This document shows, piece after piece, positions 13,898 to 63,836 of a DNA stretch of 64,000 nucleotides. Source of the DNA: Eublepharis macularius (lineage: Eukaryota; Chordata; Lepidosauria; Squamata; Eublepharidae); the NCBI RefSeq assembly GCF_028583425.1, contig NC_072794.1:31679232-31743231 (forward strand), given 5' to 3'. The notes under the pieces were generated by a model that saw nothing but the letters and a program-made list of their open reading frames with translations, was not told where the DNA came from and ran no database searches. Positions within the stretch are counted from its first letter, which is position 1. Each line of letters begins with the position of its first letter. Both the position numbers and the translations under genes were made by a program.

Positions 13898-13951
<54 letters not shown>

Positions 13952-29858: not shown

Positions 29859-30092
29859 GAGCGGAACTACAAGTGACAAAAGGCACAGGTTGGACACTTG
29901 TCAGCTTCCCTCAAGTTTTGATGGGAAATGTGGGCGTCTTGGTCTTGCAGCTTGGCTCTCTGACTGCTGTCCAATGGACTTTTCAACTGTCACTTGTCCA
30001 ACATTCCGCCAAGCTGCCTACATTTCCCATCAAAATTGGAGGGAAGCTGTCAAGTGTCCAACCTGTGCCTTTTGTCACTTGTAGTTCCGCTC
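29859..30092. mobile_element. Foldback MITE, 234 bp, TCA target duplication
   Basis: The ends GAGCGGAACTACAAGTGAC and its inverse enclose near-palindromic arms with CTTGTCAGCTTCCCTCAAG and GATGGGAAATGT. TCA flanks both sides. It lies in the short gap between the LAMC2 and NMNAT2 poly(A) signals. Confidence 0.9.
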
Positions 30093-30209
30093 TCATTCTG
30101 TTTCCACGCTACCCTTGCGATGGAAGGACTAGAAAGTAGTTGTTATGGCTCAAGTCACACAGAAAGAGCTTCTAGCCCAGAAGTAACAAAAGTGAAGGTC
30201 AACACAAAT

Positions 30210-32738
30210 CATATTAGCATAATTTTTCTTTATTAACATTATCTTTAAACGCTTTGCCAGTTTTGAATATTTTTGTCTTTTTTTTTGGTCCACGACCACT
30301 TTAGCCACAATGATCTGTTCTCCATGAATATCTGACATCTTCAAATATGTTTCTCCCCTTTTTATTATTATTTTTTTAAAATAAAACAAATACTATGGTT
30401 TAAAACTGCAAGTTCAGTGACAGAAAATAAATGTCTTCCTCCCTGTGCAGCTAAACCCCAATTCCTGTGGAGGTCAGAGGTTGATGCTTTCTCCGACCAT
30501 TTCCACACCAAACCCACCAGCCCCCTCCCCCATTTATGCTACACCCCGTCCCCTTCCCACCCTCCCCCCAAACATAAGCATAACTGAGCACGTGAAGGCA
30601 AAAAAGAAGACTAATTAAGACATTATTTACATCATCTGTACCACAATGCTATGTTCCTAAGGCATGCTGTCCTAAACTGGATGAAATTGGAAAGTGGCCT
30701 GCTCACTGATCTTGTGGCATTTATTCGTTCCGTTTCTCTCCTTTGCTATCCTTGTTCCTGGTTCCCAATGCAAACTGTCATTTGAGCCTTTTGTTGTTGT
30801 TGGAAGGCCATGGTTACTCTCTCAGCACACACACTCCTACATGATGTCTGTGCTACCTATGCCCATCACCACACTGAATACGTTGTTGGTCCTGGTGTCA
30901 GGATGTACAGGGGATTCCAGCAAGAGGCTGAAGCTCATCTTGGATAACAGAGGCTTGTGTATGTGAGAGAGAGACCGAAAGAGTGCACTTCAGGACAGTA
31001 GTTGATATGCGCAACAGGACAGCGAAAGAGCTATCTACCTAAAGACATGGAGAATATATTAAGCCCTCCACAAGTAGAAATTTTTTTTCATCAAAGAGAC
31101 TGTCGCTTTTTGTACACCTGCCTCTGACAGTAGTGAATTTCTAGGAGTACTGAATGCATTGGGTGTGTCCTGCAGAACCAGATGGTGGTACAAGCGAGGG
31201 GGAGCCATCCCTGCGTCTTGATTACCACACTGTTCTCTATTTTCCATGTGCTCGTTCTGATAACTATTGCCTGCCCCTAGGCTCTGGTACTGGGCAAAAA
31301 GAACACTCCGTGCAAAGAGTGAGAGAGATTCCAAATACAGTGTTTCTCCCGAGCATCCCCAGATGACTGTCAGCAAACACTCAAGATGGTTTTGGCTATC
31401 TGAACTTGCTATTTGCCACCTCTGGGTTCTCTCACTAGCTCCAACATGGCAATAACTGACTGCCGCCCTTTGAAATCGTGGAACTGCTCTGGGTCTCATG
31501 TAATTGTGGGAATCTCCCCACCCCACCCCTGCCCCATCTTGTAAGAACAACTGGGAGGGAAATGTTCTCTTGCTTAGGCAAGACTTAAGGAACAACGTTT
31601 TCTGGAAATGCGTTTATTTATGGGGAAACTAGCACACACCCCTGTGTGTGTGGTACCAGGTACTGTTCCTCACAAGAGGATGGGTGGATGGTAACAGCAG
31701 GTAATTGCAAATTCCTCCAGCCTGGCCTGAGCTAGCAAAACTAGCAAGGGTACAGCGGACAAAACAAGTGGTGGAACTCCAAAATGAGTTGATGGTCACA
31801 AAGAGAGGCTTTAAGTCAAGGAAGGGGGAGGGTCAGCCAATCCAGGGCCAGATCAAGAGGAATGATTTGGGTCAATGAGATGATCGCATCACCCTAAGAG
31901 GAAATGCTCAATAACTATTCCTCCCTCCCCACCCAAAAAAGAGTGCTCCCTTTTTAAAAGGTTCCAGAGCACTGTGGAAAACCCCCATTTAAAATCCACC
32001 CTCCCCTTAAAACTAGTATCTATTTACAACCAGAACAATAACCTACGTAAGAAACAAGGCTACTTTCTGCCCTTCTTACATCTTTCTCCACTAGAACCCC
32101 CCCCCCTTATTTATTTTTTGCTTCAGATACCAGTGTCCAGAATCTGGGCTGCTTCATCTAAAAAAATCAAGGCTAAATTCTTCCACGGCTGAGCTAAAAA
32201 GTCTGGGCACTGTACCAAGCGGGTTAGACTCTCCTTCTGCCAATTGCATTCTATTTTAAACAGAGCAAATCACAATAATAAAAGGCAAGAAAGAGGGGGT
32301 GGGGTAAGCGCTGAAAATAAAAAGACCCAATGAGATTTAGTTAGTTTATGCATTATGAGACAGGAAAAACGAACAACCTTCCTGGCTCCCAAGGCATGCT
32401 GGGAAGGTGGACAGTGTTACTTCCCCAAAAGCATGCTGGGAAGGTACACACCAAAGCCGCCCCCTCTAGGCACATGGTACCTGTTTCTGGTTTCCCTCCC
32501 AAGGACAGGGAAAAGGGGATTGCTGACTGGGTATTCATTTGTTTGGCTGTTGTACGCTACGCTTCCCTGTGTGGGACAGGGGAGGGGAGAGAAACAGGAC
32601 GTCAGAGTCAGAGCAGAAAAAGGCAGATGCACGCAAGAGGCAGTTTGAATGAAAAAGAGAGAAAGTTGTGTGATGAACAGCTTCAGGAAAGTGGAGCGGT
32701 AGAGCTGCCTCAGTGCGATGCCAAGGAAGGGAGGGGGG
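30210..32738 (-). other. NMNAT2: NMNAT2 3' untranslated region (limit inferred)
   Basis: About 2.5 kb separates the NMNAT2 stop from the likely poly(A) signal AATAAA on the - strand (complement of 30229-30234). I see no SINE, Penelope-like or foldback copies in this stretch, in contrast with the introns either side. That absence is what one expects of a long conserved brain-mRNA 3' UTR. An earlier AATAAA complement near 30361-30366 could serve as an alternative site. The end is inferred. Confidence 0.6.
30229..30234 (-). terminator. NMNAT2: Candidate NMNAT2 poly(A) signal
   Basis: TTTATT on the + strand is AATAAA on the - strand. It is the most distal candidate before the foldback element at 29859-30092, in an AT-rich, repeat-free block. 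Confidence 0.45.
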
Positions 32739-32841
32739 CTAACCAGAGGCATTCAGGTACAGCTGGCTCTTGAGAATGTAGTCGATGACTGGTTGAGACA
32801 GATAATCCACAACATGTCCGTCACCGTGTTGAAGAGCCAGT
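32739..32841 (-). CDS. NMNAT2: NMNAT2 last coding exon
   Basis: On the - strand the acceptor is TTGCAG. It reads [20 protein letters not shown] then [13 protein letters not shown] and a TAG whose complement is 32739-32741. Human ends LYINASG, one residue different. Confidence 0.97.
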
Positions 32842-35800
32842 CTGCAAGAAACAGAAGGGAAGGAGGTGGTCATACCGAAGTGGGCCAGAGGAGAAAGCTG
32901 TACTTTATACACAGAAACCTGCCTTCTACTTGCCAGCTCATTGGTCTATCAAGGTTAGTATTGTCTGCTGTGACTAGCTGGGAGCTCTCCAAGGTTCTCC
33001 AGAGAAAGGTCTCTTCCATCATTTGCTACCTGACCCTGTTACATGGAGATGCCAAGGATTGAACCCCCGACTTTCTTTATGCAAAGTAGATATTCTGTCA
33101 CTGAGCCACAGCCCTACTCTAGGATGGCCCTGGGCATACATGGGTGGGTTTGATAATCCACTTCTGGGAAGAGCAGGATTGGTTGGTGGAAAGGGACAGA
33201 ACAAGAAAGGCAGGTCCAACAGCAATGCTTTTTTTGTAGTGGTACTCACTGGTACTGAGTACTAGCACCTTCGGGCCGGGGGGGGGGTGCTCTCTCAAAA
33301 CCTGAGGGAGGAATTGGTGGAAATTGGTGTAACCTTATATAAGTACTGGCACTTTTTTAAAAAGTCTAAAATAGCACTGTCAAAGAGTGAGTGTGCATAT
33401 GGACAGGGGGAGGGAATCCTCTGCCATAGGCTTCTGTGATCCTCAGAACAAAAGACTTTAACACTCAAGTCAGCCACATGGCTGGTGCTGAATGGGATAG
33501 AAAACAGAAAAACATGTTAATGTTTATTGTTAACAACAAGGCACATTTTCTGTTCACAAATAACTGCTGTCCACATAGTTCCTGTGGTAAAAATACTGCC
33601 TATTTTTGACATGATGGGTAGCTGTGTTAGTCTGTTCAGTTGCACCTATAAGACCAGGGTTTTTTTTCTGGGAAAAGAGGTGGTGGAACTCTCAAGAGGG
33701 AAATGAGGAAGAGAAACACGGGTTTCTTTGAAATAATATTATTTTCAAGCACTATTGTTGAGTATTTTCAAGAGGTGCTGGAACTCCGTTCCACCGCGTT
33801 CCTCCTGAAAAAAAGCCCCGTATAAGACTAACAACATTTGTATGAGCTTTCGTATATATTATCTATTTTACTAGTGTGTTAAGATAGTTAAGAATAGAAA
33901 TGGGGATATAAGTAGTAGATTTAGACAGCGGGTTGGAAAACTGTTGGAAGTCTTAGATTAAGGGGGGAGGGGAAAGGGTGGGAGAATATGGAAGTGAGAG
34001 TCTTAATTGAAAATCTGTAATATTAATTTTTACTCACCCAATAAAATTTTTTTATAAAAAAACATTTGTATGAGCTTTCTGAAGAACTCTGAAGAAGTGA
34101 GACTCATGAAATCTCATACCCTACCACAAATTTTGTTAGTCTTATAGGTGCTACTGGATTCTTTCTCTTTTCTACTGCCTGCACTGAACTCTTTCAGACT
34201 GTAAGTGAGGGAATTGGTATGACTGAATGCTCCCCTATATATAATATTAGGTATTGGGGAAAGAACTCTTGGCTATCTTATTCCCTTATGAGCTAGTTTT
34301 CTGCATGCAGGGCTTTTCTCTGGGTGAGTCCAATTCAAACATGCATGCCTGCACCTGCAGTCTAAAGTAGTATAGTCCAGGAACTGCTTACTACTTGATC
34401 TGCAGTATGTGTAAACCAGCCCACGACAAGAAAGGAAAAACTGGCCATTGTGTCATCAGAATTTAAACGAATGCTTTCATCTGCTGTCCATATTGAAAGA
34501 GTTGTAGCTTTCTGGATGAACCTCAATGAAATTCTGTAACAGGACCCACCTATACATATACCCAGTACTGCAGTTAAACAAATTAACATGTGCTGCCAGG
34601 CTGCAACCTGGAGAATGTCTCTTTTTCTTTAACAAATCTGCAGTTTGCCCTGCCAATGGCCTTCCCCTCTTCACTAGCGGAGCAGAACAGACTCTCAAAA
34701 TGACACATAAGCTTACAGTTACCAATCCAGGGAAAGTAAGTTTCTGCTAGAGGGGCAAACAGTGCCTCTGTAGGTTCATTTCAGGTTAGCAATGAGGCCG
34801 TTTTACCCCTCCTCTCCTTTTGCTTATACCTCAGTCCTGGCTGGAATTGGGCCCCCACCTGTCTGATATTTACGGGAGTGGCAGAGGAAATGCTGGGAGC
34901 AGGGAATTCCTGGAATCCTATGTAGTTTTGCCCCCACATGTCCAGCAGAAGCAGGAGGAGAAAGCAAAGGAGAGGACAGAGAGAGAAGCAAGTTGTGAGG
35001 ATCCACCAATGCATATTCTTTCCCAGCTGCAGATGTATTAAAGCACCAGGTACAACTGCTGGGTTCTAACACAGTAGTCCTAATTTATTCTTTTGTTTTT
35101 GCTGAATATAAAAGATCATAGCTGTTACCCTGAAAAGACTTTTCCCTGTGAAAATCCTCCCTTGGAGGGTGTGTGTCTCATTTCTACTGACAGGACCCCT
35201 CCCCCAATTCACTCACCTGCTTTTGGTTGAACTGACAACAGACATGGGGTGATTCACATCGTCTTTCACAACTAGGATATTATTCTGTGGAGAAACCAAC
35301 AACAGGACATTGAACTAAGCCCCTTCCCATGTTAGAAGATTAATATGCTCCCTGCCAGAGTTTAGATTGGTAAACACAAGACGGAGGAGCTTTTTAGTGG
35401 TGACACCCACATGATGGAACCCCTCCCCCACCTGGACGTTCATACAGCCCATTCCATGTTTAATTTTCAGAAAATGGGGGAGGTTAACTGGCATTTTAAA
35501 GGGAACACCTGAAACTTTTACTGGAGAACTGTTATTTTGCTGCCAATTATTCTGTGCGCTTTTTTAAAAGGCTATGTTTAAAAATATTTTGTTCTTATTT
35601 GTTTTTAACCAAGCATTTTATTGGGTTTTTAATGTTTTAAGCTTCCCTGAGGGGTCTGCCATGCCATGTGGCTGGAAGTTCAAAAATCACCTCATAATTA
35701 TAATTATATAGTAAATTCACATTAAGTTCAGAGAAAAATCAAGCAATCTAGTTCTGTGAGCAGAACCACAAGTGACAAAAGGCACAGATTGGACACTTGT

Positions 35801-38800
35801 CTGCTTCCCTCAAGTTTTGATGGGAAATGTAGGCATCCTGGTCTCGCAGCTTCGCTCTCTGACTGCTGTCCAATGGACTTTTCAACTGTCACTTGTCCAA
35901 CATTCCGCCAAGCTGCCTACATTTCCCATCAAAACTTGAGGGAAGCTGGCAAGTGTCCAACCTGTGCCTTTTGTCACTTGTGGTTCTGCTCACAGAACTA
36001 GATTGCTTGAGTTTCACTAGACTCAATATTTCTCTCACAGAATGCTTAAACCTGCTCAGGCAGCACACAGCCAGGGCCTCTCTTTCTCTGACTGAGAGCG
36101 AGACCACAAGTGACACCTGACACAGGTTGGACACTTGCCAGCTTCCCTCAAGTTTTGATGGGAAATGTAGGCAGCTTGGTGGAATGTTGGACAAGTGACA
36201 GTTGAAAAGTCCATTGGACAGCAGTCAGAGAGTCAAGCTGCAAGACCAGGATGCCTACATTTCCCATCAAAACTTGAGGGAAGCTGACTAGTGTCCAACC
36301 TGTGTCAGGCGTCACTTGTGGTCCTGCTCTGAGTGTCCTTTCACAAACATGCTCAAGTTCAGGTTCCACACAGGCTATGTTTCTCTCATAAATACTTGAA
36401 TATACTCAGGCAGCACACAGCTCGCCTGCTTTCCTCTGACTGAAACTTTTCTCTTCACTCTCAATCTCAACTGCCTTCACTCCGCCCACACTCTCAGTCA
36501 TCAACCAATCACATGTGAATTTACTATATATAAACCAAGCATGAGGGAGGAAAGTTTTAATCAGGCCCTAAATCTGGGGTGTGGCGGTCATCTCTGTTTC
36601 TTTGTTTAATTTGTAGGTGGGCCAGATATCTGAGGTTCTACTGAAAGCATGGGGCTAGGTAGTAAGGTTACAGGCCAACTGTCTCCAAATAGCTGTTACA
36701 TTTTAAAAGGAATATTTATATTAAAAGGCAGAACTAATCTTAGAAAGAAAACCGGCATGTTTGTAATGGCTCTTTCTGTTTCATTGTATTATTTTAGTTG
36801 TGAGCTGCCTCGAGCAGATCTCTAGAAAGGTGGCATATACATTTTCCAAGCAACTGTGTCCTTATCCAAGAGATTTTCAGAGATGGTCAAAATTACAAAA
36901 GGAGGAGAAAGAATTGTTCCCTTGCCCCAGGAGGCGGGACCAATTTCAGCATACCTCCCTCACTCCTAACCGTAAATACCTTCCCACACATACAGGTTCA
37001 GAGAGTCAAATCAGACATGTAGATAAGAAAATACAATTTCTTAATTAGCCGTGCTTGTTAGCTATGGCCAATCATTGTTAATGTGAAAGAAGGGACTGAA
37101 GAGGGACACTTGTAGGGCAAAGAAGCATTCTGCCCTATGGAGATTTTGCCAACTGAAGGAAGAACCACTTTCAGCTCTCTTAATGTGTATGCAGCACTAC
37201 TATTTTCCTTTGACAATTTAAAAGCATGCATTTGTAACATTAAAAATTATCATTGATATGTGATACAATTATGGTTCCAGTTATCTTCCTAAAGAGTCAT
37301 TAGGCCCAAAAGGTTCTTGGGGGAAGGAGGAAGGGTCGGAAGACTCCATCAATACAGATGGGAAGGGGTGGACAGGTACCAGAAAAAGATGGTGCGGTCC
37401 TGGCACAATGTTTCATTCCTCTTTATCATTGAGAGTACTGAAAAAAGAGAATATTACAGGGGTGGAGGATGAGTTGGGCTTGGAGATGCAGCGATTATGC
37501 AAAGGCACTTACTTTGTACTTGCGGAGTATTGAGGAATGGTTCATGATCCGGTCTGTGTCAACACCATCTCGTGGCACGACTACAATGCCAAAGTCCCCA
37601 ACGATCACCTCCATCTGTTGCATGGCAAAAGGAATGCTCTTTAGGAATGAAGTTGAATCAGCTTCTGAGTTACTGGTTTGTAGTAGATACACTTCAGACA
37701 TTTGCTGACATCAGGATGCTTCCTAATCAAAATTCTCTCACTCATCTTTCCAAAGTCTTGGAAAGTTAGCAATGCAGACTCATAGGGTTTATCTACAACA
37801 CTCATTAATATGATTTAATATTCCTATTCCTCAGGGCTGATGTCACATATCTACAAGGCATAGATGGTCACTTGGGAGTTCCATGCCAGGAGATCAGTTC
37901 CCAAGCACATGGTGTGTGGGTGTGTGTGTCCAATTTTAATTAAAAAAGTAGTGTGTAAGGAAAAGGAACTTCAGTCTCTCTCTCCATCTCCTGAACCTCA
38001 GCCTGAAATGGCTCAGGGATCCAGTAATCTAGCTCATTGGGGAAACTTATGAGTAGCCATCAATATGTGTAGTTTTGCCTAGTGGGCTCCCTGGGGCCAT
38101 TACAGATCAGGAAAATGGTATGGTGTGGGATCGGAAAGGCTTTAAACCCTACTTCCCGTGTGCTGTGGTCCAAAACTGAATTGGACCTCTGTGACCTAGG
38201 GAACTAAATTCCCAGCATCAAACTCCAAGTGCACGTCTGATTCAAAGTCCTTATGGCACCCATGAGTTGCCCTGTGAACTCTGTAATGTGTGAATCAGCC
38301 CTTGAGACAGTGAACCCTAATACCTGTGCTTTGGAGCAGAGAGCTAAGGGGCCATTACAGTTCTCAGGAGGAAGACATGACAGTTACACTGGCACAGAAC
38401 AGACATTCCTGGATAGTGTAGATACAGAGTTAGAAGGTAATATCCAGCTATCGTATCCAGCTTCCAGCCTCTGAAACCCATTCTAAGCGATAATCATAAA
38501 GGAGGCGTGTGACTGAACAAATAATTTCCAAGGATCAAAGCAAGGAATAACATGTTGCAAGCTGGAGGAAGGCCTTGCTCACCACCAAGATCTCTGTCCA
38601 ATTTTTACTTTAATTAGCAAAATGGTTAAGATGATGACTGCCTGTGGGGGGAGGGGGTGGTGGTAAGGAAGGGACATTCTAGGCAAGTAGGATACAGAAC
38701 ACTTTGGAAGCAGACATGCACTGCATGCATGCCCACACACACACCCCACTGTGCACAGAGGCCTGATCATTCTAGGACAGAGGACAGGCTTTGGCCTGCT

Positions 38801-41800: not shown

Positions 41801-44800
41801 GGATTCTCATTTACTGCTTAGTGAACAAGCTGCAGTTCCTCCCCAGAAATCCTATAACCAGGGCTTTTTTTCTGGGAAAAGAGCTGGCGGAACTCAGTGG
41901 GTTGCCCTTGGAGAAAATGGTCACATGGCTGGCATGGTCACTCAGTGGCGCGGAGGGCAATCTAAACTCCCCTCTGTCTGGAGATCAGGGGGCGGGGCCA
42001 CCAGCCATGTGACCATTTTCAAGAGGTGCTGGAACTCCGTTCCACTGCGCTCCTGCTGAAAAAAAGCCCTGACTATAACTTAGCAGCTGTCTACAGATTA
42101 AAATTTTTAGTTGTACCTCTAAAACAAGTAATATTTGACATGACTCTTAGCTTTATCTCTGCCCCTCTCTCACCACATAATTCATTCTTAATCTTAGATT
42201 TGGCAAGAACACTGCTATTTTGCAAATGCTAAATTAATCAAGCAAATGTAGCAATGTTTACACAAACTTATATACAGCTCATTGATTTGTATAATTTTAT
42301 TTTTGATTAAGACCCCCGGGTTGCTCCTTTTGGCGCAATGCTGTTTATAATTCCCCTTTCATTCAGCTTAGAGAACGAATGAAGTCAAGCTTTGTGCTTC
42401 ATTTGACTTCATGGCTCTCTCTTGCATCCCAAGGCAAGAGGGGAAGGATGTTGTAGTTATTGTTAAACAAATAGCATGCTGGGTTTTTAAAGCATTCCTT
42501 ATTCCCTGCAGTGTAATGGAAACATTTCTATCCATATTAGGTATTGGAAGGTTCTCTTTACCCATCTGCTAAATTTAGGGCTAAATTATGTGAAAATATC
42601 TTTCTAAAGGGAAAATGTTTAGAACGGAAGATTGCAAAAAGTCCCTAGCCTGTACCATTGGATCCAGCAGCTTTAGGCAACTGCCTCTCTGCCACTCTGC
42701 CTCACACAGGGATGATGAAAGGACTACGGGACTAAGAAGAATTTTACAAAACATCTGGCTGGACTGCAAACTCCTTGGGACAGAAGCCTCTTTAATCTTT
42801 TTGCTTGTGTTATTCAGTAAAATGCCATGTTCAGTAATCTAAATGGTAACAATTTGGCAAATCAAAAGCAAAGTCACACTTTGACATGGTATAGCCAAGG
42901 TGACCAGACGCACAGGCCTATCCCTCTCTCATACTTATAGGAGAGAATTTTGGCTGAGGCAGCTTTTCTCACTTGCACAAATGAATGCCGCTCTGCTGGA
43001 ACTGTAGGAGTCTTTGAAGAACCCAGTGCTTCAGCGCACTGGAATGGGCCTATGGACTGGGGATGTATAGATGTCAAAGGGTTTTTTTCTAAAGTTACCT
43101 AACTTGTGTTGAGGAGGGGAGTATGTAGCTCAGTGATAGAGCACATTTTTGCATGCAGAATGTCCCAGGTTCAGATTCTGGAATCTATAGCTAGGAAAGA
43201 CTAGAGAAGATTTTGGGTTGTGACCCTTGAGGGCCACTGCCAAAGCAGGCAATACTGGAACAGAAGGGACCAGAGGTCTGGCTCCTATTAAGCAGCTTTA
43301 TATATATTGATAACATAGCCAGAGGCATAGCAACTATTACGTTCTTAAATTTGCTATATCTTTGTTGATCAGATTCATGAATGGGCCTTGCAACCTTGCT
43401 ATGGCTTGGATCCAATAAAGCATTTTCGTGGCCAAAATGCTTTCCACGTGCACTGCATGATTTTCTTGCTGCAGCCCCAAATTCTGCCTAAAATGCTGCT
43501 TCTGGGGGCCCCCAGCAGCAGCATTTTAAGGGGCATTTTGGGCCGCAGCGGGAAGGGGAGAGGACAAGAAAGTCATGCTCTGCAGGTGGAAAATGTTCCA
43601 GTTACAAAAATGCTCTAGCAAATCCAAGCCCGTGAATCTTCCCATCCTTCTCCCCAATTAAATTTGAATTGGCAGACTTGGGTTGTTTGACAAGCCGCAC
43701 CTGCTGAAATCCTCTCTTCCATGCAACCATTGAAGGTATATTCTCCTTTGTATCTGGAGATACAGATGAATTGCTCACAGAGAAGCAGAGAATAGCAGGC
43801 AAACAATTGGGGGTAATTGGAGAGGGTGAGGAATCAGGTCTCCTGATGATGTTGATTGAAGGGCTTTTGGGATGGATGAAAACAGAATGGAGGGAGAATG
43901 ATCAAGAGGCAGAGCAACAAAAGGGAAGATGGGGACCAGGTGACAGCATGCACCCATCTCCACAGCCATCTTTACTTACATCTGCTTCATTCCATAGGCC
44001 TGGGATACAGAAGGATTCCAGCAAGTCGCTGCCACAGAGCAGCAAGATCCGGAGCTCTGCAAACAGGGCACAACAATTCAGGTCTATGGACAACAATTCC
44101 TGCCTGGAGTTCAGACCTGCACTAAGCTGTTTCTTCATCGCCTGAAGAGTCACTTATCCAAAGAAGGGAGAAAAGATGCCTCTCCTACACAGAGAGCCAA
44201 ACTACAAGTGACGCCTTACACAGGTTGGACACTTGTCAGCTTCCCTCAAGTTTTGATGGGAAATGTAGGCACCCTGGTTTTACAGCTTGGCTCTCCATTA
44301 CAGCTGCAAGACCAGGATGCCTACATTTCCCATCAAAACTTGAGGGAAGCCGACTAGTGTCCAACCTGTGTAAGACATCACTTGTAGTTTGGCTCAGAGA
44401 TGCTGCTCACGCGGTTTTCATTCAGTCATGGGATGCCTCACTCAAGGACCATCTATACGTGCGCATATATGCAAGTGACTTGTACGTGTGCAACAATACC
44501 ATTCCTGGCTCTGAAACTGTCCTATGAACTTCTTCTGGAATATTAATCCATTAATCTGTTGGAAGGTTATTTACATGTTTTGTTCGGATGATATAAAATA
44601 CCTGTACCTGAGACCCTCGACAGCTGCTAACAGAGTAGATAATACTGACCCTTGATAGATCAATGGTCTGGCTCTGTATAATGCAGTTTCTTCTGATAGA
44701 ATGCCTGCTTGTGTCTGCACTCTTAGGAGACTTTCCATATTTGAAAAAAGGAAGGCCACTGTAGTTCAAACACAGACCTTTTTCCTAAATGTTCTCTGCA

Positions 44801-47800: not shown

Positions 47801-50800
47801 CTAAGACAGGAGAGAATCAGCTTTGTGCTCAGAACTGAAACAATACTTTGCCTTTGTGTAATGTCTTTCCTACAGCTGAAAGTAGCTATAAAAAATACCT
47901 GAAACATTTCTGAATTGTAGTCCCTAAACTGAATCATGGAGACAAAATGTTTGTCACCATATTTGGGAATACATGACTGATATTGATGCATAAATTGTAG
48001 TTTTTCTGCTTTGCAGCTCAAGCCCCATCATGTTTACTTGGAAGTAAGTCTTACTGATTTCAACTTTCTTATCGGTAAGTGTGTAAATATACAGTTTGAG
48101 AAGCAAATGAAGCCCTGACAGTTTTTTAAAAATGAAAAGCAGCCTTGGAAAGTTATGATTTTGAGAAGAGTGGACAGTTTATATGCACATGCATCCATGC
48201 AAAGACACACGAGCATACAATCATAACGTTCGTGGATCCAGGGGCTTGAGGGACTCTGCAACTCCAGTATAGTTCTTGTTGCATACAGCCATCTTGTGAA
48301 AGAGCAAGCAGCCCCAGACAGTGGCAAAGGGGCATTCAGCCAGTTCAATGGGACCTGGATTAACACCTCAGTATGCATGTACATGCAGGTGTACATCTAT
48401 GTTCGCTATGAAAGTGTACGCGGACCTTCTTCTGGCACTTGCAGCTTTGTTCACTATGTTGTCTTCCTTGCATTCCAGAAGCGAGATCTTTGAATGCAGA
48501 ATGTGAGGTCTTTTGGGCCACAACATCTGTCTTGGGGATACCAGCCAAACCCTGTTGTTGCATATGCTCTTCCCACCAATGAGTAAAAACATTTGTTTCT
48601 TGCCAAATCTGATTACCCCGATCCGGATCTAGCTACATGCACAGTCAGGCATAAGCAACTGTGTTGGTTCTGGTATAAAGACGTTCATCCCCCAAAGCAT
48701 CCAAAGATACATTCAGCCAGTTCAAGAGGGCACGAATGAGCACCGTAACGTAGGAGGGGACAGATGTGTAGAGATGCACGTCATGATTTTCAGCAGCTGT
48801 TGCACATGTGGAAGGCTGATCTCTTGCTCAATCCGATCCACTAGAGCCAGTATTATGTTATTTCATGCTGCAGGATTTTACACAGTTGTTATGCTATTCT
48901 GAAAAGGTTTATTATTAGGTTATTGATTGTTCATTATTGTGTTGATTCTATTTATTATCGCACGTCATCCTGAGCATATTTTTGGACAGATGACTAGAGG
49001 AGTTTATAAATAAAGCTAACATTCAGAAGCAATGTGTCTCTGAGCAACAGATGCTGGAATGAATAACGGGGGAGGACGGTTGTTTTCAGGCCCTGCTTGT
49101 GAGATGGTCTGATCCAGCAGGGCTCTTCTTATGTTCTTCAGTGGAAGGATTAAAAACAAAAAATAGATCAGCAGCAGAATCAAAATTCCCCTTCCTCGTT
49201 CACTTGTCTGCAAGTGAAGGTTTAACAAAAATGCACGTCCTGACTCCTTCCATATAAGTAGTTGAAAGAAACTCTTCCACTTGCTTTCTGAATGCTCAGG
49301 CTCTTTTTCAGAGGAGTTATCCATGTTAGTCTTGTAGCAGCAAAACAGTAAAGAGCCCAGTAGCACCTTTAAGACTAACCAACTTTATTGTAGCGTAAGC
49401 TTTCGAGAGCCACAGCTCTCTTCGTCAGATGCATCTGACGAAAAGCGCGGTGGTTCTCGATCTGATGAAGCGAGCTGTGGCTCTCGAAAGCTTATGCTAC
49501 AATAAAGTTGGTTAGTCTTAAAGGTGCTACGGGGCTCTTTACTATCTGGTTCTCTTTTTAATTCTTTGCTGCGTTTCAAGTTTTCAACCTGGATACTGCG
49601 TTGTACCTTTAAATCCATTACGGCGTTGGTAGACAAAGGCAGCCACAACATCTCCCTTCATTTCCCTCCAGCTTCTTTGGACTGACCTGCACCAATCAGG
49701 ACTTGAGGTGTGATGCACAGTGGATGGGAGAAGGGGCAGCTGAAAGGGACCATGGGAGGAAAGTCATGGATGTCTTCTCTTGTGATTCTGCAGAGAATTT
49801 AGGTTACAACCTGGAAACCCTAACTTGTGGCTATTACCCCTTCTCCAGTTAGAGGCTATGAGCAGAACCACAAGTGACAAAAGGCACAGATTGGACACTT
49901 GTCTGCTTCCCCCAAGTTTTGATGGGAAATGTAGGCGTCCTGGTCTCGCAGCTTCGCTCTCTGACTGCTGTCCAATGGACTTTTCAACTGTCACTTGTCC
50001 AACATTCCGCCAAGCTGCCTACATTTCCCATCAAAACTTGAGGGAAGCAGACAAGTGTCCAACCTGTACCTTTTGTCACTTGTGGTTCTGCTCTTTGTTT
50101 TGACAATCCGTATTATCAGAACCTTACTTTAAGTCACCTTGCGATAGCTTTATTCCCTCCTGCTAAAACTTACCTGCAGTGGGCTTGTTGGAAAGGTTGC
50201 TGTTTTGATAGATAGGCTGTGGGGTCTCGTTCTGGGGCTGCCCAATCACTGGGGTCAGGGACGGTGTATTAACGTTGGAGAGGATGCAGCCAGTCACTCG
50301 CTAGAGAAGAGGCAAAATGGTAGGGTGTCAGTGTTTATACCCTCATCAGCACCCACACAACCAATGGGAAAAGGGGCATTTCTCACAACTACATGGTTTT
50401 AATCACACAATTATTTCCCCATCTTTGAGATATACTAACATCTTGGTTTCTTGACATGTTCCTGCCAATGTGTGACCTTTAAAAAGACGAACACATGAAA
50501 CTCAGTTAGACTGAGTCAGACCACTGGTATATCAAAGTACTGTCTACGGTACCTGGCAACTGCCCTCCATGTTCTTGCATAAATGTCCTTCACATTGCAT
50601 GCTCACCACCTTGAGAAGGCTCTGGAGAGGTGGCATATAAATTCCTAAATAAATAAACAGATCATCTATATCCCCTAAACCCTTTAACTGGAGATGCCAG
50701 GGACTGACCATTGGAACTTCTGTGTACAAAGCAGATGTTTGACCCTGGAGCCATGGCCCCTCTCCCTTCTGGCTTCACTGGCCTATGCCTTATCCCCACC

Positions 50801-53800
50801 ATAGTCCTTTCCCCCAACAGAAATATCTCCTCCTAAGTAAGTATTAATGTTGTTGCCAAGGGTGTAGGTTAGAGTGTCAGACTACGAGAGGAACTACAAG
50901 TGACAAAAGGCACAGGTTGGACACTTGTCAGCTTCCCTCAAGTTTTGATGGGAAATGTAGGCATCCTAGTCTTGCAGCTTGGCTCTCTGACTGCTGTCCA
51001 ATGGACTTTTCAACTGTCACTTGTCCAACATTCCGCCAAGCTGCCTACATTTCCCATCAAAACTTGAGGGAAGCAGACAAGTGTCCAACCTGTACCTTTT
51101 GTCACTTGTAGTTCCGCTCTACGATAAAGAAGAGCCAGGTTCAAAACCCTCCTATGCTATGATGCTTACTGGATGAATTTGGGCCAGTCACTTGTTCAAT
51201 TTAACCTACCTCACAGGGTTGTTGTGAGGATAAAGGCGAAGAGAGGGAAGTGATGCACACCACCCTGAGCTTCTTGGGGGAAGGGCAGAATTAAAATGTA
51301 TTTGCAGGCTGATATCTGGGCAGAGATGCCGAGCTCTGATTTGAAAGGGTAGAGCCCAGTAGAGTTTTGATGCCACTGAGAGTTTTTAAATGGTTTATGA
51401 TAGAGTCTTATGCAGAAACTGGGCCTTGCCTCTTCTATTCCTGGCCACTGTCTAAAAAACCAACCCGGGCTTCTTCCCATTGCTTGGCAGCCTTACGTGA
51501 AATTTTGTATCCCATCATCTATTTAATAGTCTCTCTTAGGATCAGCATTTAGATTTCTAGTCCTTGAACTAGGGGCCTGTCTTTTTGTTTACATTCCTCT
51601 CTAAAGCCCCATGTATGGTGTTATCTTGTATTCCTATCAGTAATAATAACCTAATTATCTAAGGAACAGCCACAGTGCTAGAGGTTAGTTTCAGGCAGGT
51701 AGCTGTATTGGTCTGCAGTTGAACGGAAGGATTTGAGACACCAACAAGAATTTCAGGGTATAAGCTTTCAAGCATCAAACAGAAGGGCGCTTTGATTCTC
51801 AAAAACTTATGCCCTGAAAATCTTGTCGGTCTCTAAGGTCCTACTGGATTCAAATCCTGCCGTACTAGAGCATGGAGAACTAAATAGCTCCTGATAAAAA
51901 CAGCACTGAAAACTAAAAGGCCTTTTGATATTGGTATTTGCTCACAGTCTTCACATGCTGTGGGTGGGCAGATGAGTAAGCCATTGGTTGATTTCTGGTG
52001 GACCACCAGATGCTAGGATTCTTGCAAAGAATGCTGGTCAAGAGGGACTTTGGTCTAATCCATCAAGGCACGTCTGAGCATAAACTCTTTCTTATTAGGA
52101 CCTCTTAATACATTTTAGTTATGCCTCAAGTTCTACAAGGTACCAGAGATGCCCTCTTCTTTGCTTAATTTAGAATTCACTGGTGGACTAGGAGGATTCT
52201 AGTAAAAAAGTCAAAAGAAGTAGATTTAGAACTGTGCAGTAAAGCGAACAGGGTTTTTTTTTTGAGCCACCAGAGGGTGCTCAATCCTCTTTGATGTGCC
52301 TTTTGGGGTTTGGTTTGGTTTCACTAAAAAAGAAGGTACGATGCATCGTGAATAGAAAAGGGTGTGTAAATGCATTGATTCAAAAGTGAATTATCAACAC
52401 TGACAGAATAAAAAAACTAGTCCCGACTCCCGGGCAGTAAAGATATCACACTGAACTCCCCAGTGTGTAGCCTTATACGGAGTCAGTTTGAATTGCTGCT
52501 GCAGTTGCTACCAAAAGTTTTGGCCAGCTCCGAAGAGCATGCCCTTCAGGGGCCTGACAGGAGATGATGGATATATTGGGTATACTTATGCTACAGGCAT
52601 AAGCAGGTTTAAAAGTCAATCTGTTCAGCCTCTCAACAAATACCTGGGATTCCTTGGTGAAAGCCATGGCATTGAACTGGTCCAGAGACTGCCTAAACAA
52701 ATACTGGGATGGGAGGCATGTAACACCTTGCCTATTAGAATTGCCACTGAATGTTTGAAACTGGTTAATTTAATGGTGGGTTTGTTGTTCTGCCTATGGC
52801 TGGACTAGATCAGGAACTCACGGAAATAAGAAGGTTCCATTAAAATCAGCCTCTAGAAATTAATACCTGTGATACTTCTGCCTTGAACTAGGATAAGTGC
52901 TGAGTGTCTGTTTTTAAATTTAAAATTGTGTGCACCCTAAACTGTATACTAAGCAGAAGCTAATTTCAGGTCTCCATAGAAATGATATCTGAAAGGTGAT
53001 GAGAGTGCATTGGGTTTGGTATACACAAAACCTCTCGTACCCCTCCGATGCATTGTTTAGTACTGAAGGCACATCAACTCGCATTCCCTGCATCCATTAG
53101 TCTCGGCACTATGGGCTGCTGACTGCTCGGCTTTGCCGGCTAGATCAATGAAAGAAATAAAGGTGTTCATAATAACTTGCTCTGGCACGAAACTCCACAG
53201 CTAGAGCAGAGAGAAAGTGAAGCGGCAGCCTCATAATAACTATTATTAACTGGTTAAAAGCCTGTGAAATTTCACTATACGGATGACAGTGACATTTTGG
53301 AGAAGAAGGATACACCCCATTTCCTTTCTATTGATTCCCCACCTCTATCACTAATCCATCTTATGATGCAGAACTCCCCCTCCCTCAAATCCAGCTTCAG
53401 GAGGGGGGAGCAAAGTGTCAAAAATCGATCATTCCATCAACATCTCCCCTCCCAAAGGAAGTTCTCAGTTTTTGATATATTGATACTTTCCTCTCCACCC
53501 CCCACCATTTTCAGTCACCTGCTGTTTGCCCTCCAGAGAAAAAGAGAGAGGCACCATACAGGCACCAATATCTTATATACTAATAGCCAAGCGGCTCTGA
53601 TCTGTGGATATTTAAATACAAAAACTGGAGCCCTGAACAGGCAAGACAGATCTTCCTACACACTTGAAAAATGCCCCAGGTTTGTAAATCTAAGTTCCAA
53701 ACTACACTTTTGGGTAAAGGAGAGTCAAACGAGCTCGAAATGCTGTCACAGGGGAAGGAACAGCACCTGCATCTCGCCAAGCCATTTTCCTGCATAGAAA

Positions 53801-56800
53801 CAGCATGGGGAGGGGGGTATTTCCCCATTTTTGCTTCTCCACAAGAAAAAGCAAAAATAGGCAAATAAGTACCCCCCCCCCCCCGCTCTGTTTCGTTATG
53901 GGGAAAATAGTTGGGAGGAGAAAAGACTGGTCCAGGAGTGGCCGCCCCACCACTGCATTTTTGGGTTGCCAGGTTTCCTGGGAGTGAAAGCAGGGGATGG
54001 GGGGGGTCATGGGGGGAGTTGCGCTCTGGAGCGCCCCCACATCATGCCTGGAATGATGTTATTCCTGGGGCAACGTGGAGGCGATGGGTCGCAATGGGGG
54101 CAGATTGAGTAAAAATTAACACCAAACACTAAATCGGGGCCAATTGACCCTGGCGCAACCCAGCGCTTCTGTATCACTCTAGGAATGATATTATCCAGAT
54201 ATGACACAAGCCCATGTGAGGGGAACACTCACATGTAGTGGGGGGCACTGGGCCAGAGTGTTTGTTCATGGAATGGTCATGTTTACAGAGTTAGAATTTA
54301 GTCTAAATAATTACATATAGTACTACAGTTCCATTACTGAAATTAAACAATAAAAATATGATGAAAATGAACCTAAGAAAATGTTTTCCGATTGCAACAT
54401 ATATAATAAGCATATGCGTTTGCATATTTTTATTTGTGCCAAGCAGCATGAAACATTAGGATGGCCTTGCATAGGGGATAACTTGACTTAGGGCTGCCAT
54501 TTTCAGTGGCAGCCCTGTGTTCTTTGTAGCATGCTATTACACCCAAAGTTACTAAACTGACAGCACTGGCGAAGGTGAGGTGTTGCTAATCCATTCTTCC
54601 ATAATGCAGTGCTCTGCAGACATTCCAAACAAGTCATTCTGATTGCCCTGAAAGCTTTTAAAAGAACCAATTGGCAGTTTTACAAACCTCAATGAGGTTG
54701 AAATATTCATAGGGAAAAATGGCATAAGACATATATAATGCAAGCTAAATGTGCACAGCAGGATATTTTATGATATAGAATTTGGGTTTTTGTGGAGCAG
54801 AACATTACTAGCCTTGACTAGATACATAATAACATGATTGCTGCCTAATAAAACTCGTTATACAACATGGATTGAAATCAAGCGGGTTCAGACACAAGAT
54901 TTCCCAGGTCTGCTTTTTGGATCAATTTGTGATCAGAAGACTAACTGATCCATTTTGGATCACCTCCAGTCAACACTCCTACAATTCCTTTCCCTGTTTT
55001 TTCCATTTTGGCATGGAGAATCTACCTGGAGCGGGGTGTTGTACAGACATTTCAGAAATCTGCCATGGTCTTGAAGATGCTGGAAATTTGCACCTACTTT
55101 TGGCACACACAGAGCCTTATTTTTCCTTGATTTACAGTGCAGTCCTAAACAGAGTTACTCCAATCAGCTTAGTTTGGGGTAACTGCTTAGGATTGAACTA
55201 TTATTCTCTTCCTTTGTCCATAATGGGGACCCATTCTCCTCTCCTCCAATTTTATCCTTGTAGCAGCCCTGTGGGGTAGGCAAGGCTGAGTGAGTGTGAC
55301 TGGCCCATGGTCACCCAGCTATCTTCCATGGTAGAGCAGGGATTCAAACCTGGATCTCCCTGATCCTAATCTGACGCTTTAACCACTGCACCACATTGGC
55401 TTCAATTTATCCTTTTGCCAGTTTACTTTCTGTCAAAAATTCACAAATATTCACATCAGACGGAATATCAATCTTCGGGATCAAACTTCTGGGAAAAATG
55501 GATCCCATTTTACGAATACATAGAAGCAAGAGATTTGCAACCTTCCTCTTCACACCACTCATTGTTGATGTATTAAAGTTGAATCACTGTGTTGATATTT
55601 GTAAATGCAATGTATTATATTGGTTTGTTGCTTGATTATTGTTACAGTTCTAAAATTGAATAAAAATTATTTATAAAAAAAAAAATCACAAATATTTCAG
55701 AGGTCTTGCTCTCCCTGGTTTGGTGAAATTCCACTGTGTATTCAACACTATGACATTACAAAATTCTATTTGAATTATACACTGATGAATGGGCAATTTT
55801 TAAGTACATGCATATTTAGTTATACAAACCTTCTCTGTAGAATATCTTTCCAAAATAAAAATAGGGAATGCATGCACAGGCAGTAGTCATAGCTGTAGCA
55901 GAAATCACACACACATACACACCCCGGGAGGGGGGTGGATACTGTAGAGAGGGAGAATAAGATTTTTTTTTCAACTACTGTATTTTTTAAGTGGAAGTTT
56001 GGTTTTCCTTTTTTGTTGATCAATTGTATGATGGTAAAAGGGCTGAATAGTGCAATACTACATTTCACAACGATATCCATCCATCACAAGGATCTAATTT
56101 TGTGCCCAGACCATTTTTCCCCAAATATACAATGTGCCTTTTTTGAAGGGATTTGTTTATTTTATCCAGTTTTTTCTGCAGAACAGGAGTGCAGTTGCAT
56201 TTTTGTGGACAGGTATGAAAAAAATGAAATGTTGATTTCTCTAACTTAGACAAATTATGTAATTTAGCCATTTTCCTTTTCAGAAAACAAGAATGTTCTG
56301 AATTATTTTTAAAAATCCTTTTAAACGCAATATCTTTTTTAAAATTTAAAAATCCAGAAGAAAGATTTAGGCCCATGAAGTTTCAGTCGTGTTCCCAAAC
56401 ACATGGAAATTGTTAATTAAGGCTGTCACACCATAGGAACAGTACATACACTGTACAGACAGACATATCATGCTCTTTTATAACTGAGGCTCCCTGCTAG
56501 AGATGGGGATGAAATGGGAAAAAAAGAAACGAGTTTTGTTTTGTCACATTCCACAAATCACAAAACACGAACTTCCATGAATCACGAAACATGAACTTCC
56601 ACGAAACTGTCCCGTTTCACAATACGATTTGTTAGTTTCGTGCTTTGTCAAAACCCAGGGCACTTCAACGGCCCTCTTCATACCCCAAAATGCCAAACTT
56701 ACAGGGAGACTTCAGCAGGCTCTCTTCAACCCACCCTCCCAGTTTGGCCAAGACTGCAAAATGTTGACTGGAACCCACAAAGCTGGGCCCCAGCGCCAGG

Positions 56801-58704: not shown

Positions 58705-60181
58705 CTATTGTGAGAAAAGAAACAAAGAAAGGTTGAGTTGTTCTCTCTGTGAATGACCATTCTTGGTTATCTTTGAATATGTCACACTTCAAAAGTATGC
58801 ACAGATTAGAAATTGGTGAGTATTTATTTACTACGCATAGATCCCCAGCCTTGGGCTCCCAGTGATCTCCCCTTCATATCAATGATCAAGTCTACACCCA
58901 CTTAGCCTCAGGTGTTCCCAGACTGCTTGATCTCTGGCAGAGGGATCCACAAACGCTGAAGTGGCCCGTTCTACTCTGATACACTCTCCAGCAATACAGT
59001 CTTAAAACTGTACCAGTCAAATAAGTTGCTGCCTCTGCTGCAGCCATCACTTCAACAAGTCATTAGCCAGAGGCTAATGGAAATGTCTCATAAACCTACA
59101 CTCAAGTTTCTTCAAACCAATACCTTTGCGTTTGGTTATACACACACACCGCTTACCAATGGCTTACTTTTCACTAGTACATCTGTTTCTTATTAGTAGC
59201 CTTCAACTCTCTCAGATCTACAAGAGCCTTTCTTTAACCTTAACCTGTAACAAGGGAGCCACATAATTTTTTATTGTATGTATTAATTTAACCTTTGCAA
59301 TCTCTCTCTCTTCACCATGTGAACTTCTGTTTAATGTTCTCCTTCCCTCTCTATCTAAGACATAGTTGCAATGCTGCTGGTCTGACCCATCTTGACTAAG
59401 GAGAACCATCAGTTGGTCAGAGAGCCCACTAGTAGAAGACCTATGATTTAGGCCAATGATCCCAACATGGCACCTTGAGGTTCGAGGGTGTCCCCCAATG
59501 TTTTTCCTGTGTCTCACTTTTCCCACCAAAGCAAAGTGTCAATCCTGGCTATCTTGGGGGGAATCATCTGGAACTTCCATTTGGAAATAGCTGGCCTAGG
59601 ATTGCCAGCCCATGGTGGCAAATGATTGGAAACTGTGGGGATGGGGACTTGCCTTTTTGATGGAGCACTGATACCATGATGTCACTTTCAGCCTGACCCT
59701 AAACTGACATCGTCCCCCCTAGGGCTTTACTATAGATTTTCTGCTGATACTTAGATGCATGACATCATGCTGTCCCCCTGTGTCTCCCCCCCCCTTCAGA
59801 CTTCCACTGGTTGTCAGGCTGTGCCTGGCAACTCTACACAAGATCTAGAATAGGTCTCATAACAGCCCAGCCTTGCCATGCATTTGTGCAGGTAACCAGT
59901 TCTAGTATATCTGAGGCCACCGTATAGTACTCTTACCATGGACAATACGCTAATGGGTAGAACCCTAACCAAGGACCTGGGCAAGTTAAGAGACAGCCTT
60001 TAGCAATAAGGAGACTGGCTTTTCCTGCACTCAATCTGGAGTGAACTTCCTGAGGAACCAAACCATTGAGCCTCTTTGTTGAGATATGCTGCCCAGTCCT
60101 AGAGATGTTTAATGTTGTGTTAAATGATACTTACTCTCCAGTAACAGTGACTAGGATAGCAGCTTTAAGAAACGTTGTACA

Positions 60182-60366
60182 GACACATGTGCTGCCGAGT
60201 TGCAACTGACTTACAGGGACCCAAGCAAGGGGCTTTCAAGGCAACGGAGAAGCAGAAGTGGTTTGCCATTGCCTTCCTGTGCAGAGTCTCCCTTGGTGGT
60301 TCCCCACCCAAGCACCAACCATGCTTAGTTTCTGAGATCTGACATGATTGGGCTATACCATGCAGA
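60182..60366 (-). repeat. 5S rRNA-derived SINE, minus orientation
   Basis: CCCACCCAAGCACCAACCATGC and GCTTAGTTTCTGAGATCTGA are the complement of 5S rRNA. GCAACTGACTTACAGGGACC and GTGGTTTGCCATTGCCTTCC form the tail, as at 26409. Confidence 0.78.
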
Positions 60367-61639
60367 ATTCCCGAAGAAAATTTGTAAAGCTGATCATATT
60401 AAGCAAGCTTTTGAAAACCAAGTTTAGGTTCTTTTTCTATTTTACCAATTTTTCATTTCTATAGTATTGGTACTTACTATTTTCAGAACTGGTTTAAACC
60501 TAACTTGCTATATGGGACTTTGTTTATAAAAACAATTTTTTTTTTACAGTGTTGTACTTATCCAACTCTGTATGTGTCATTGTCAGAAGCCACTAAGTAA
60601 GGAGCTAAAAATCATCAGCTACGTTTGAATTGGTGACAATAAAAGATACTTTAAAGATACACCTACTTTATCAGATTCTCCCTTGGTATTTAGATAAGAT
60701 TCATGACAAAAAAATAAGTATTTGGACACTTGAAAGCAACACTAGACAGAGATTATTTTGATTTAACTATAACAAAAAAGACTGCTAGATTCATAGCTGT
60801 CAAGATCATTCATTAAATATAATTTTTCCCTGCACATATCCCATTCAGCTAATTTCAGCCAAAAAGATGAATGAAGAATGATGAATTGGGGCTTATAATT
60901 GCAGCTCAGCCTATCATCGCACAAGGCACATTAGTCAATGGTGTGAAGAAAATGCCTCCAGCTGATACATTTCATTTCACAAAGAGAAATGCTAAGCACT
61001 GACAGCATTTTGGAATACCAATGAACTCTTCACAGAAACATTTTGCTGTTAGCGAGTCACCTGATCATACTAACATGCATCTGTCTAAACGATATGATCA
61101 CAAGATATGGAGCACAGGCTGAAAAAGAGTGATGCAAAAATTATTCAGGGATCAGCAATTGAAACCCTATGGACTAAGGGGATAACTGCACAATATGCCT
61201 GATACGTGTCAGGTCATGGGTACATGACCAGACTTGCAGTTAGATGTACACTAGAGGAGCTCACGCTTGGTGCTCCCTCACAGCACTGAGTGAACGAGTG
61301 CTTTTTAAGGTGAGTCCCCCTGATATATTTCTAACTTCAACTCCAGTTGAACTTCAACTCCACAGGTGTGCAACCCCAGTTGCACACCTGTGACCCAACA
61401 TGTGTCAGATGCATCATGTAGTTATGCCCTATATCAGAATCGGCAGAAGGTACTGCTTTCCTCCCCCCACCCAGTGCCATTTTAAAAATAAAAGGGTATC
61501 TTGGCATATGCCAGCTCCTAAATCTGAGCCTTTCCTCTCTCTGAAACTGGTAATTAGTTGTAATGATTTTGCTAAGCCTTTTGATGCTAAAAGCTCTTGA
61601 ATATATTCAGGTAGTATACTGGTTGTAACATGGTTCAGA

Positions 61640-63340
61640 TAGAAGAAATATTTAATCCATCATCTGGTCTGTTTTGACCCAGGCTCTGTGATGGATCCTG
61701 GGGTCTACGAAGGCTACCACTTGTGCTCTGGAGCCTTGTCCATCCTGGTTGCTGAAATCACGAGAGGACTACCTTAATGAGCCATTGATGTCCATCATAA
61801 ATCAATCACTGACTTGAGGGGCCTTGCCTCAGCCACTCAAAGAGGTGGTTATCCGTCCACTACTTTAAAAACCTACAGAATGATTTAGTCAATTGTTGCC
61901 CAATCTCTAATCAGCCCTTTTAGGGCAAGATGATTGAGTGAGCTGTGGCAGACAAACATAGGGACTTGTTGATAGATCAGGATGTGTAGCTATGTTTGTC
62001 AGCAGCAGCAGAAAAGAGCAAGAGTCCAGTAGCACTTATAAAACTAACCCCTCTGCTTTATCCTACCCTGTCCAAACATGCTTGCTATTGTTATTCACTG
62101 GCTTTAATCATTTATCTGCTATTGTCATTCAGCATCTAAAATCACTCCACTCCCCAAGATATAAGGACAGATGGACTCACGTTCTATGAAAGCTCATACT
62201 TCACCATAAATTTTGTTAGTCTTTTAGGTACCACTGGAATCTTGCTCTTTTCTACTGCATAAGGACTTGTTGGATAACTCATCTGCTCTGGACTCTTTTT
62301 GTTCTAGTTTCAGGCCAGGCTAAGGGACAGAGACAGCTCTGCTGGCTTTAGTTGATGATCTCTGTCCTAATGTAGACAAAGGCAATGCCACTGACTGACT
62401 GCTGTGGTTAAATGGTTAGAAGTGAATAAATTGAAACGAAACCTTGACAAAAAGGAGGGAATGCTGGTTGGAAAGCCTGAAGTCTTGAATGACACTGTGC
62501 TTCCTACTTTCAGCTGATCCTTGCTGGGTAACATGGTAACATCAAGGCTAGATTATTGTAATGCACTGTACATGGTTTTGCCTTTGAAGTCCATTTGGAA
62601 ACTCCATTGGGTACAGAATACTACAGCACAGTTATCAACAGGAGCTAGGTGGAACATGCAAGTTATACCCATTCTGTCATTCTGCAGTCGCTCCATCAGC
62701 TGCCCAGCAGTTACCAGGTTTACCTCAAGGCACGGGCCGTAACATACAAAGCCCTTCATGGCCTTGGTCCCTCATATCTGCAGGACTGCCTTTCCTTTCA
62801 TACTTTGCCATGACAGCTTTGCTCATCTGAGCAGTGCCTTCTGCAGGTGCTGCTCTGCAACTGGGCAAGATCAACAACTGCCTGTATACATGCCTTCTCT
62901 GTTGTGGTCCCCACCTTGGGAACAGCCTGCCTGAAGAGGCCAGGAAGGCTCCCATGTTTCTGTTGCTTTGCAAACCATGTAAAACAGAATTGTTTTACAT
63001 TTTTGTAAATGTAATAGGGCTACATTATAATGGAATGGTTCAGAAAGGTGCTTAAATAAAGTGAATGGACTGTGGGTGGACTAAACTACTGTGCATAGTT
63101 TACATGTTCTGTTTGCTGTTTTATTATCTTGCTCTCCCTGTATTATTTTCTACTATTATTTTCTTTATTATTTAACATGACATGTCTAATACTTATGCTT
63201 TGTATCATATTTCTGTAATTCTAGTCCTATTGCATTGCTTACTAGACGTCTTAGCCTATCAGTTGCATTGATTTACATTATAATCCATCTTGAGTCTCAG
63301 TGAGAAAGGCAGACTATAAACAACATAAATAAATAAAAAA
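61640..63340 (+). mobile_element. L2/CR1-type LINE remnant with a nested insertion
   Basis: Fragments of reverse transcriptase are readable: PISNQPF and AVADKHRDLL near 61.9 kb, FRPG..DRDSSAGFS-like sequence near 62.3 kb, SRLDYCNALY at about 62.55 kb and the RT C-terminal motif KALHGLGPSY near 62.75 kb. The frame is broken many times, so it is old. The 3' end has an AAATAAATAAA tail near 63330. A Penelope-like foldback splits it at 61979-62260. Confidence 0.75.
61979..62260. mobile_element. Penelope-like foldback inserted in a LINE
   Basis: The left GCAGAAAAGAGCAAGAGTCC and the right inverse (GGAATCTTGCTCTTTTCTAC) form terminal arms of about 45 bp. GGACTTGTTG occurs on both sides (about 61962 and 62265) as a candidate target duplication, and the LINE reading resumes after it. 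Confidence 0.7.
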
Positions 63341-63634
63341 GAAGAACATGGAGGGGTGACTGTTTTTCAGCTTAGGCAGCATTCACACATCACTGGATAT
63401 TGCACTATCATTGCACAATAGCAATAATTCACTTCTTGGATTGTCTTGTCCACGCAGGTGTTCATGATTGCTGCAGCGCACTAATCAGCAATAGTGAGAG
63501 AGAATATACATAATACAATTTTGATATCAAAAATAAACTGATTGTAGATCAATTTCTGATTGTAGATAACATGTTGGTACTCAATTCAATTATTTTAAAT
63601 AATGAGGTTGCTTTTAAGGAACCTGAATAACTAA

Positions 63635-63836
63635 GAGCGGAACTACAAGTGACAAAAGGCACAGGTTGGACACTTGTCAGCTTCCCTCAAGTTTTGATGG
63701 GAAATGTAGGCATCCTGGTTTTACAGCTTGGCTCTCCATTACAGCTGCAAGACCAGGATGCCTACATTTCCCATCAAAACTTGAGGGAAGCTGACAAGTG
63801 TCCAACCTGTGCCTTTTGTCACTTGTAGTTCCGCTC
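63635..63836. mobile_element. Foldback MITE, 202 bp, TAA target duplication
   Basis: The ends GAGCGGAACTACAAGTGAC and its exact inverse enclose nearly perfect arms. TAA flanks both sides (63632-63634, 63837-63839). The short centre matches 44194-44395. Its arms are among the least diverged in the window. Confidence 0.92.

Follow-up and report, generated by a model that had tools for sequence, protein, structure and literature searches.

Tourist-like miniature inverted-repeat transposable elements (MITEs) and mPing are short, non-autonomous elements that are bounded by terminal inverted repeats (TIRs) and flanked by a 3-bp target-site duplication (TSD). Two described transposons are of particular interest here because of their target site. 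NuwaII, according to PMC4482050, is a Harbinger relative in the PHIS (PIF/Harbinger, ISL2EU, Spy) superfamily with DDE and Myb open reading frames (ORFs); its TIRs mostly start with GG, its target is C|TNA|G (N being any base), of which TNA is most likely duplicated, and its hosts include turtle, amphibian, and bony fishes among others. Tc4, as presented in passages of PMC11071193, recognizes CTNAG, duplicates only TNA, and has been recorded from nematodes, arthropods, and tardigrades; the reference list of the same source cites it for an unusual fold-back structure. In squamates, Harbinger-Snek of sea kraits has many short non-autonomous variants according to passages of PMC8437027, which also describe Harbingers as unreported in solely terrestrial vertebrates, yet the table of that paper has ~0.4 Mb in two terrestrial snakes.

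Here, we describe a large foldback MITE family of Eublepharis macularius, met in a 64,000-nucleotide stretch of contig NC_072794.1 (C5:31679232-31743231, hereafter the window) within a host genome of 2.24 Gb and 72 contigs. The family is real, non-autonomous, and has moved by transposition. Its members are near-complete foldbacks with the target C|TNA|G, probably cut-and-paste DNA transposons that are served most likely by a NuwaII-like PHIS (PIF/Harbinger) transposase. A literature search of titles and abstract openings returned no published account of this family. In this one vertebrate genome, the family has inserted thousands of times into a short palindromic target, and transcribed copies could each form a long double-stranded RNA stem.

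Abundance, target site, and transposition

The 14-base end motif GAACYACAAGTGAC is found genome-wide 6503 times in forward and 6495 times in reverse orientation, against 40 and 38 times for the reversed pattern. TSDs were scored in 86 distinct copies with both flanks, copies with fewer than 20 bases of flank having been dropped, although segmental duplicates may remain in this sample (e.g., L028 and L047, the flanks of which are 99.5-99.7% identical). An exact 3-bp duplication is present in 56 of the 86, while re-paired flanks give 10.0%. Chance is excluded because the motif so greatly outnumbers its reversed pattern and because exact duplications are so much more frequent than in re-paired flanks. 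When only copies of 201-239 bp are considered, and the window element at 5993-6193 is left out, the exact TSD is found in 52 of 81. By size, 72 of the 86 copies are 234 bp long and four are 202 bp; the other 10 include a nested copy of 1762 bp and four copies whose lengths are 118, 129, or 201 bp. Mean divergence from the consensus is 3.9% (39 copies on C1, range 0.9 to 7.3%), a value biased towards younger copies by the choice of copies with an intact end motif. The elements are MITEs, being short, without a transposase gene, bounded by TIRs, flanked by a TSD of fixed length, high in copy number, and homogeneous.

The length of the duplication is well defined. Junction identity over exactly 2, 4, or 5 bases is seen in only 3, 1, and 2 of the 86 copies, respectively, and the first of these values does not fit the 2-bp TA duplication of Stowaway and Tc1/mariner elements. 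Pooling of the half-sites from 172 ends gives A/T at 152, C at 147, T at 134, any base at the next position, and A at 136, so that the target reads W-C|TNA|G-W (W being A or T). TNA makes up 36 of the 56 exact TSDs. The TWA of classical PIF/Harbinger elements accounts for 18 of the 56 (TTA 9, TAA 9), and TGA and TCA together account for another 18. Duplication of TNA within C|TNA|G is what NuwaII and Tc4 have alike.

Paralogous empty sites were sought by matching joined flanks, which gave matches for 19 copies, and nine of these were viewed. Three have clean empty sites with a single target triplet each (L043, L056, and L077). At L043, TGA stands twice around the element; six paralogous stretches of the host repeat into which it inserted lack the element and have TGA once. 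L056 lies in a common repeat and L077 inside a copy of its own family; both have one target triplet in the empty site and one flanking triplet that has changed. Of the remainder, L004, L052, L053, and L069 are diverged or ambiguous, and L021 and L022 give no alignment across the junction. Recombination with chimeric flanks was considered as a general cause of missing TSDs, but it is not needed in the testable cases, as the flanks of L056 and L077 are contiguous. The claim of an earlier note on this DNA, that the 3-bp duplications reflect true transposition, is thus upheld both by the exact TSDs and by these three empty sites.

Two sub-families with common termini

A sister set of 118 to ~230 bp has GGGCCAAGCTACAAGTGACGAATGAC-like ends and starts with GGGCC, where the 234/202-bp set starts with GAGC. 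A search with the GGGCC ends (up to 6 mismatches) gave 26 copies, 16 of them with exact TSDs, compared with 12% for re-paired flanks, and with the same half-site. Nine of the 26 overlap the first set, and exact TSDs are present in 9 of the remaining 17. In two copies (L059:2201-2433 and L078:609-842), GGGCC outer ends enclose a core of the 234 type (93-94% identity across ~218 bp), and the sub-families are connected through these intermediates.

Both sets also contain the motif CAAGTG/CACTTG at position 12 and again at position 37, where the two sets have it in opposite orientations; the 118-bp copies listed have a further one at 26. There are 5 such motifs in the 234-bp consensus and 10 in the element at 5993-6193; the two 202-bp copies of the window contain 3 and 4, and the rest of the window has 0.52 per kb. 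We take the motifs to be putative binding sites for a transposase or a Myb protein. Two sub-families that have termini, target, and CAAGTG motifs in common but differ in their interiors offer a test of which parts of a MITE the transposase reads. MITEs nested in MITEs were also seen (L128, L136, and L077), with 234/202-type elements inside 201-type or 234-type copies, and these provide a relative chronology.

Copies in the window

The window contains seven copies of the 234/202-bp set, five of 234 bp and two of 202 bp, all exactly where the earlier note had placed them. The copy at 29859..30092 (+) is flanked by TCA, that at 36096..36329 (-, opposite to the first) by TGA, and that at 50886..51119 (+) by TAC. 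The 202-bp copies, for which no strand is given, lie at 44194..44395 (AGA) and 63635..63836 (TAA). All five of these duplications are perfect, as had been noted. The remaining two copies are without an exact TSD: 49860..50093 (+) has TAT and TTT at its junctions, and 35758..35991 (+) has TGT and ACA and is flanked by an inverted repeat of ~18-23 bp. The end sequence GAGCNGAACYACAAGTGAC, which the earlier note held to be common to all seven, stands without mismatch at either end of four copies (29859, 35758, 49860, and 63635); the others have one or two mismatches per affected end (36096, left 2 and right 1; 44194, 1 and 2; 50886, left 1).

An eighth, related foldback element of 201 bp, absent from the list in that note, is located at 5993..6193 (no strand given) between TTA duplications. 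Its outer ends are similar to GAGCNGAACYACAAGTGAC, with 3 and 4 mismatches, while its interior is different and is of the GGGCC/GAATGAC set type. The statement that copies come in exactly two sizes is right for the seven copies of the window alone; across the wider set, lengths range between 118 and ~230 bp, with longer nested forms besides. The whole-element hairpin that had been proposed is confirmed by folding. The eight window copies have fold energies of -154 to -185 kcal/mol, and the 202-bp hairpin at 63635-63836 reaches -184.9 kcal/mol, with z = -29 against 200 shuffles. An Rfam scan of the window gave no family at or above its own threshold.

Two other features of the window are worth recording. 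An ORF at 6764-7294 (-) is presumably the GIY-YIG endonuclease of a Penelope-like element. By their sequence, ORFs at ~10085-28524 (+) look like exons for laminin EGF and coiled-coil segments, probably of a laminin gamma gene.

Candidate partners and alternative explanations

The superfamily, enzyme, stagger, and binding sites that we infer would fit together as follows. A transposase acting in trans would recognize the outer ~19 bp (G[A/G]GC..A[A/G]CYACAAGTGA), probably aided by the subterminal CAAGTG motifs. Cut-and-paste insertion into the palindromic W-C|TNA|G-W with a 3-nt stagger would then leave TNA duplicated.

Enzymes of the appropriate type are encoded in the host genome. DDE_Tnp_4 matches number 1334 candidates, and the 150 of these that were scored are all over the cut-off, one of them with an internal stop. 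In both L095 and L122, Pfam identifies one ORF type as DDE_Tnp_4 and another as Myb_DNA-bind_4, and the two transposase families that were read carry the Myb/SANT-like second ORF on the opposite strand. The Harbinger-type enzyme class is thus present in this genome and, in the L095 family, was recently active. There, the whole 3.5 kb of L095 is matched at 97.5% or more by 24 of the 29 other loci, and the frames are open.

Longer elements and unpaired ends were considered as partners and rejected. L027 has 1762 bp between its TIRs (544-2305) and is a MITE split by an insert, not an autonomous element; from its ORF, we take the insert to be the 3' end of an L1-type long interspersed nuclear element with a poly-A tail. 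Unpaired ends at 13 places (L079-L091) resolve into eleven 234-type copies, one of them (L085) with an insert, a 201-type copy (L080), and a chance match (L084). A search with the 201-bp arm scored 40 places, of which 20 were read (L123-L142). Three of these have no right arm within the stretch; for L131 it lies farther on (L143), and for L130 and L134 there is none within the next ~3.4 kb.

Several observations weigh against service by a NuwaII-like enzyme acting through the mechanism above. No transposase was found between MITE termini in the stretches read, where no search was aimed at the Tc4-type domains PF03184 and PF03221. Across 30 transposase loci of 3,486 bases each, a search allowing 2 mismatches gave no MITE ends, the MITE sequences matched nothing above chance (best E 0.97), and in the 4,501 bases of L122 there are only three MITE-end hits, each with 4 mismatches. 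The transposase elements' own ends are not seen within these 3,486- or 4,501-base stretches, so missing MITE ends at these loci neither link nor separate the two. The 234/202 set starts with GA rather than GG. No exact TSD is present in 30 of the 86 copies, 15 of which differ at two or three bases, and by our own estimate this exceeds what point mutation at a divergence of the order of 3.9% should give. Lastly, left and right flanks form inverted repeats of at least 16 bp in three copies (window 35758, L037, and L045), with 0.02 expected among 86; these could come from insertion into palindromic host repeats or from template switching at the hairpin. L037 and L045 also have ~21 bp in common directly after the right end of the element.

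A TNA-like bias had been taken by the earlier note to suggest PIF/Harbinger. This assignment is plausible, although the C|TNA|G target is wider than TWA and is also that of Tc4, and no transposase-bearing copy was found. The elements could instead be MITEs of a Tc4-like transposon (Tc1/mariner superfamily, DDD transposase) in a vertebrate, which we regard as unlikely. The foldback anatomy would suit such an origin, but foldback structure is found in MITEs of several superfamilies. The target is identical and Tc4 duplicates TNA alone, in the account given in PMC11071193, but the GGGCC starts agree with NuwaII. A broader version has about the same small chance of being right: a vertebrate foldback lineage of the Tc4 type (DDD, CTNAG) beyond nematodes, arthropods, and tardigrades, or else a NuwaII lineage that has convergently acquired Tc4-like foldbacks with CAAGTG arrays. 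Slightly more doubtful is that these are classical PIF/Harbinger MITEs with a TWA target and no separate CTNAG group, for while the 3-bp TSD and the abundance of DDE_Tnp_4 families with Myb partners in the genome would suit them, TWA has too small a share of the exact TSDs and is equaled by TGA and TCA. Another superfamily with 3-bp duplications, such as Chapaev3/CMC, Zator, or Academ, agrees in TSD length but not in the CTNAG palindrome, a target that is not known for any of the three, and is very improbable.

Comparison with known systems

The likeness to Tourist-like MITEs and mPing lies in the short, non-autonomous, TIR-bounded form and the 3-bp TSD, but the present family has the target CTNAG rather than TWA, and its complementary arms are much longer. 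Harbinger-Snek is similar by description, as a Harbinger element with many short non-autonomous variants; the passages of PMC8437027 leave its TSD unstated. Tc4 has the target C|TNA|G, the duplication of TNA, and the fold-back form in common with these MITEs and differs in its recorded hosts, which are nematodes, arthropods, and tardigrades rather than vertebrates. If a Tc4-like transposon were the partner, the known range of that group would change. From NuwaII, the family differs in the GA start of the 234/202 set and in its near-complete foldback, and no transposase has been linked to the MITE termini. It resembles NuwaII in the C|TNA|G target, the TNA duplication, the GG start of the GGGCC sub-family, and vertebrate hosts, and a NuwaII-like partner would extend a poorly known group.

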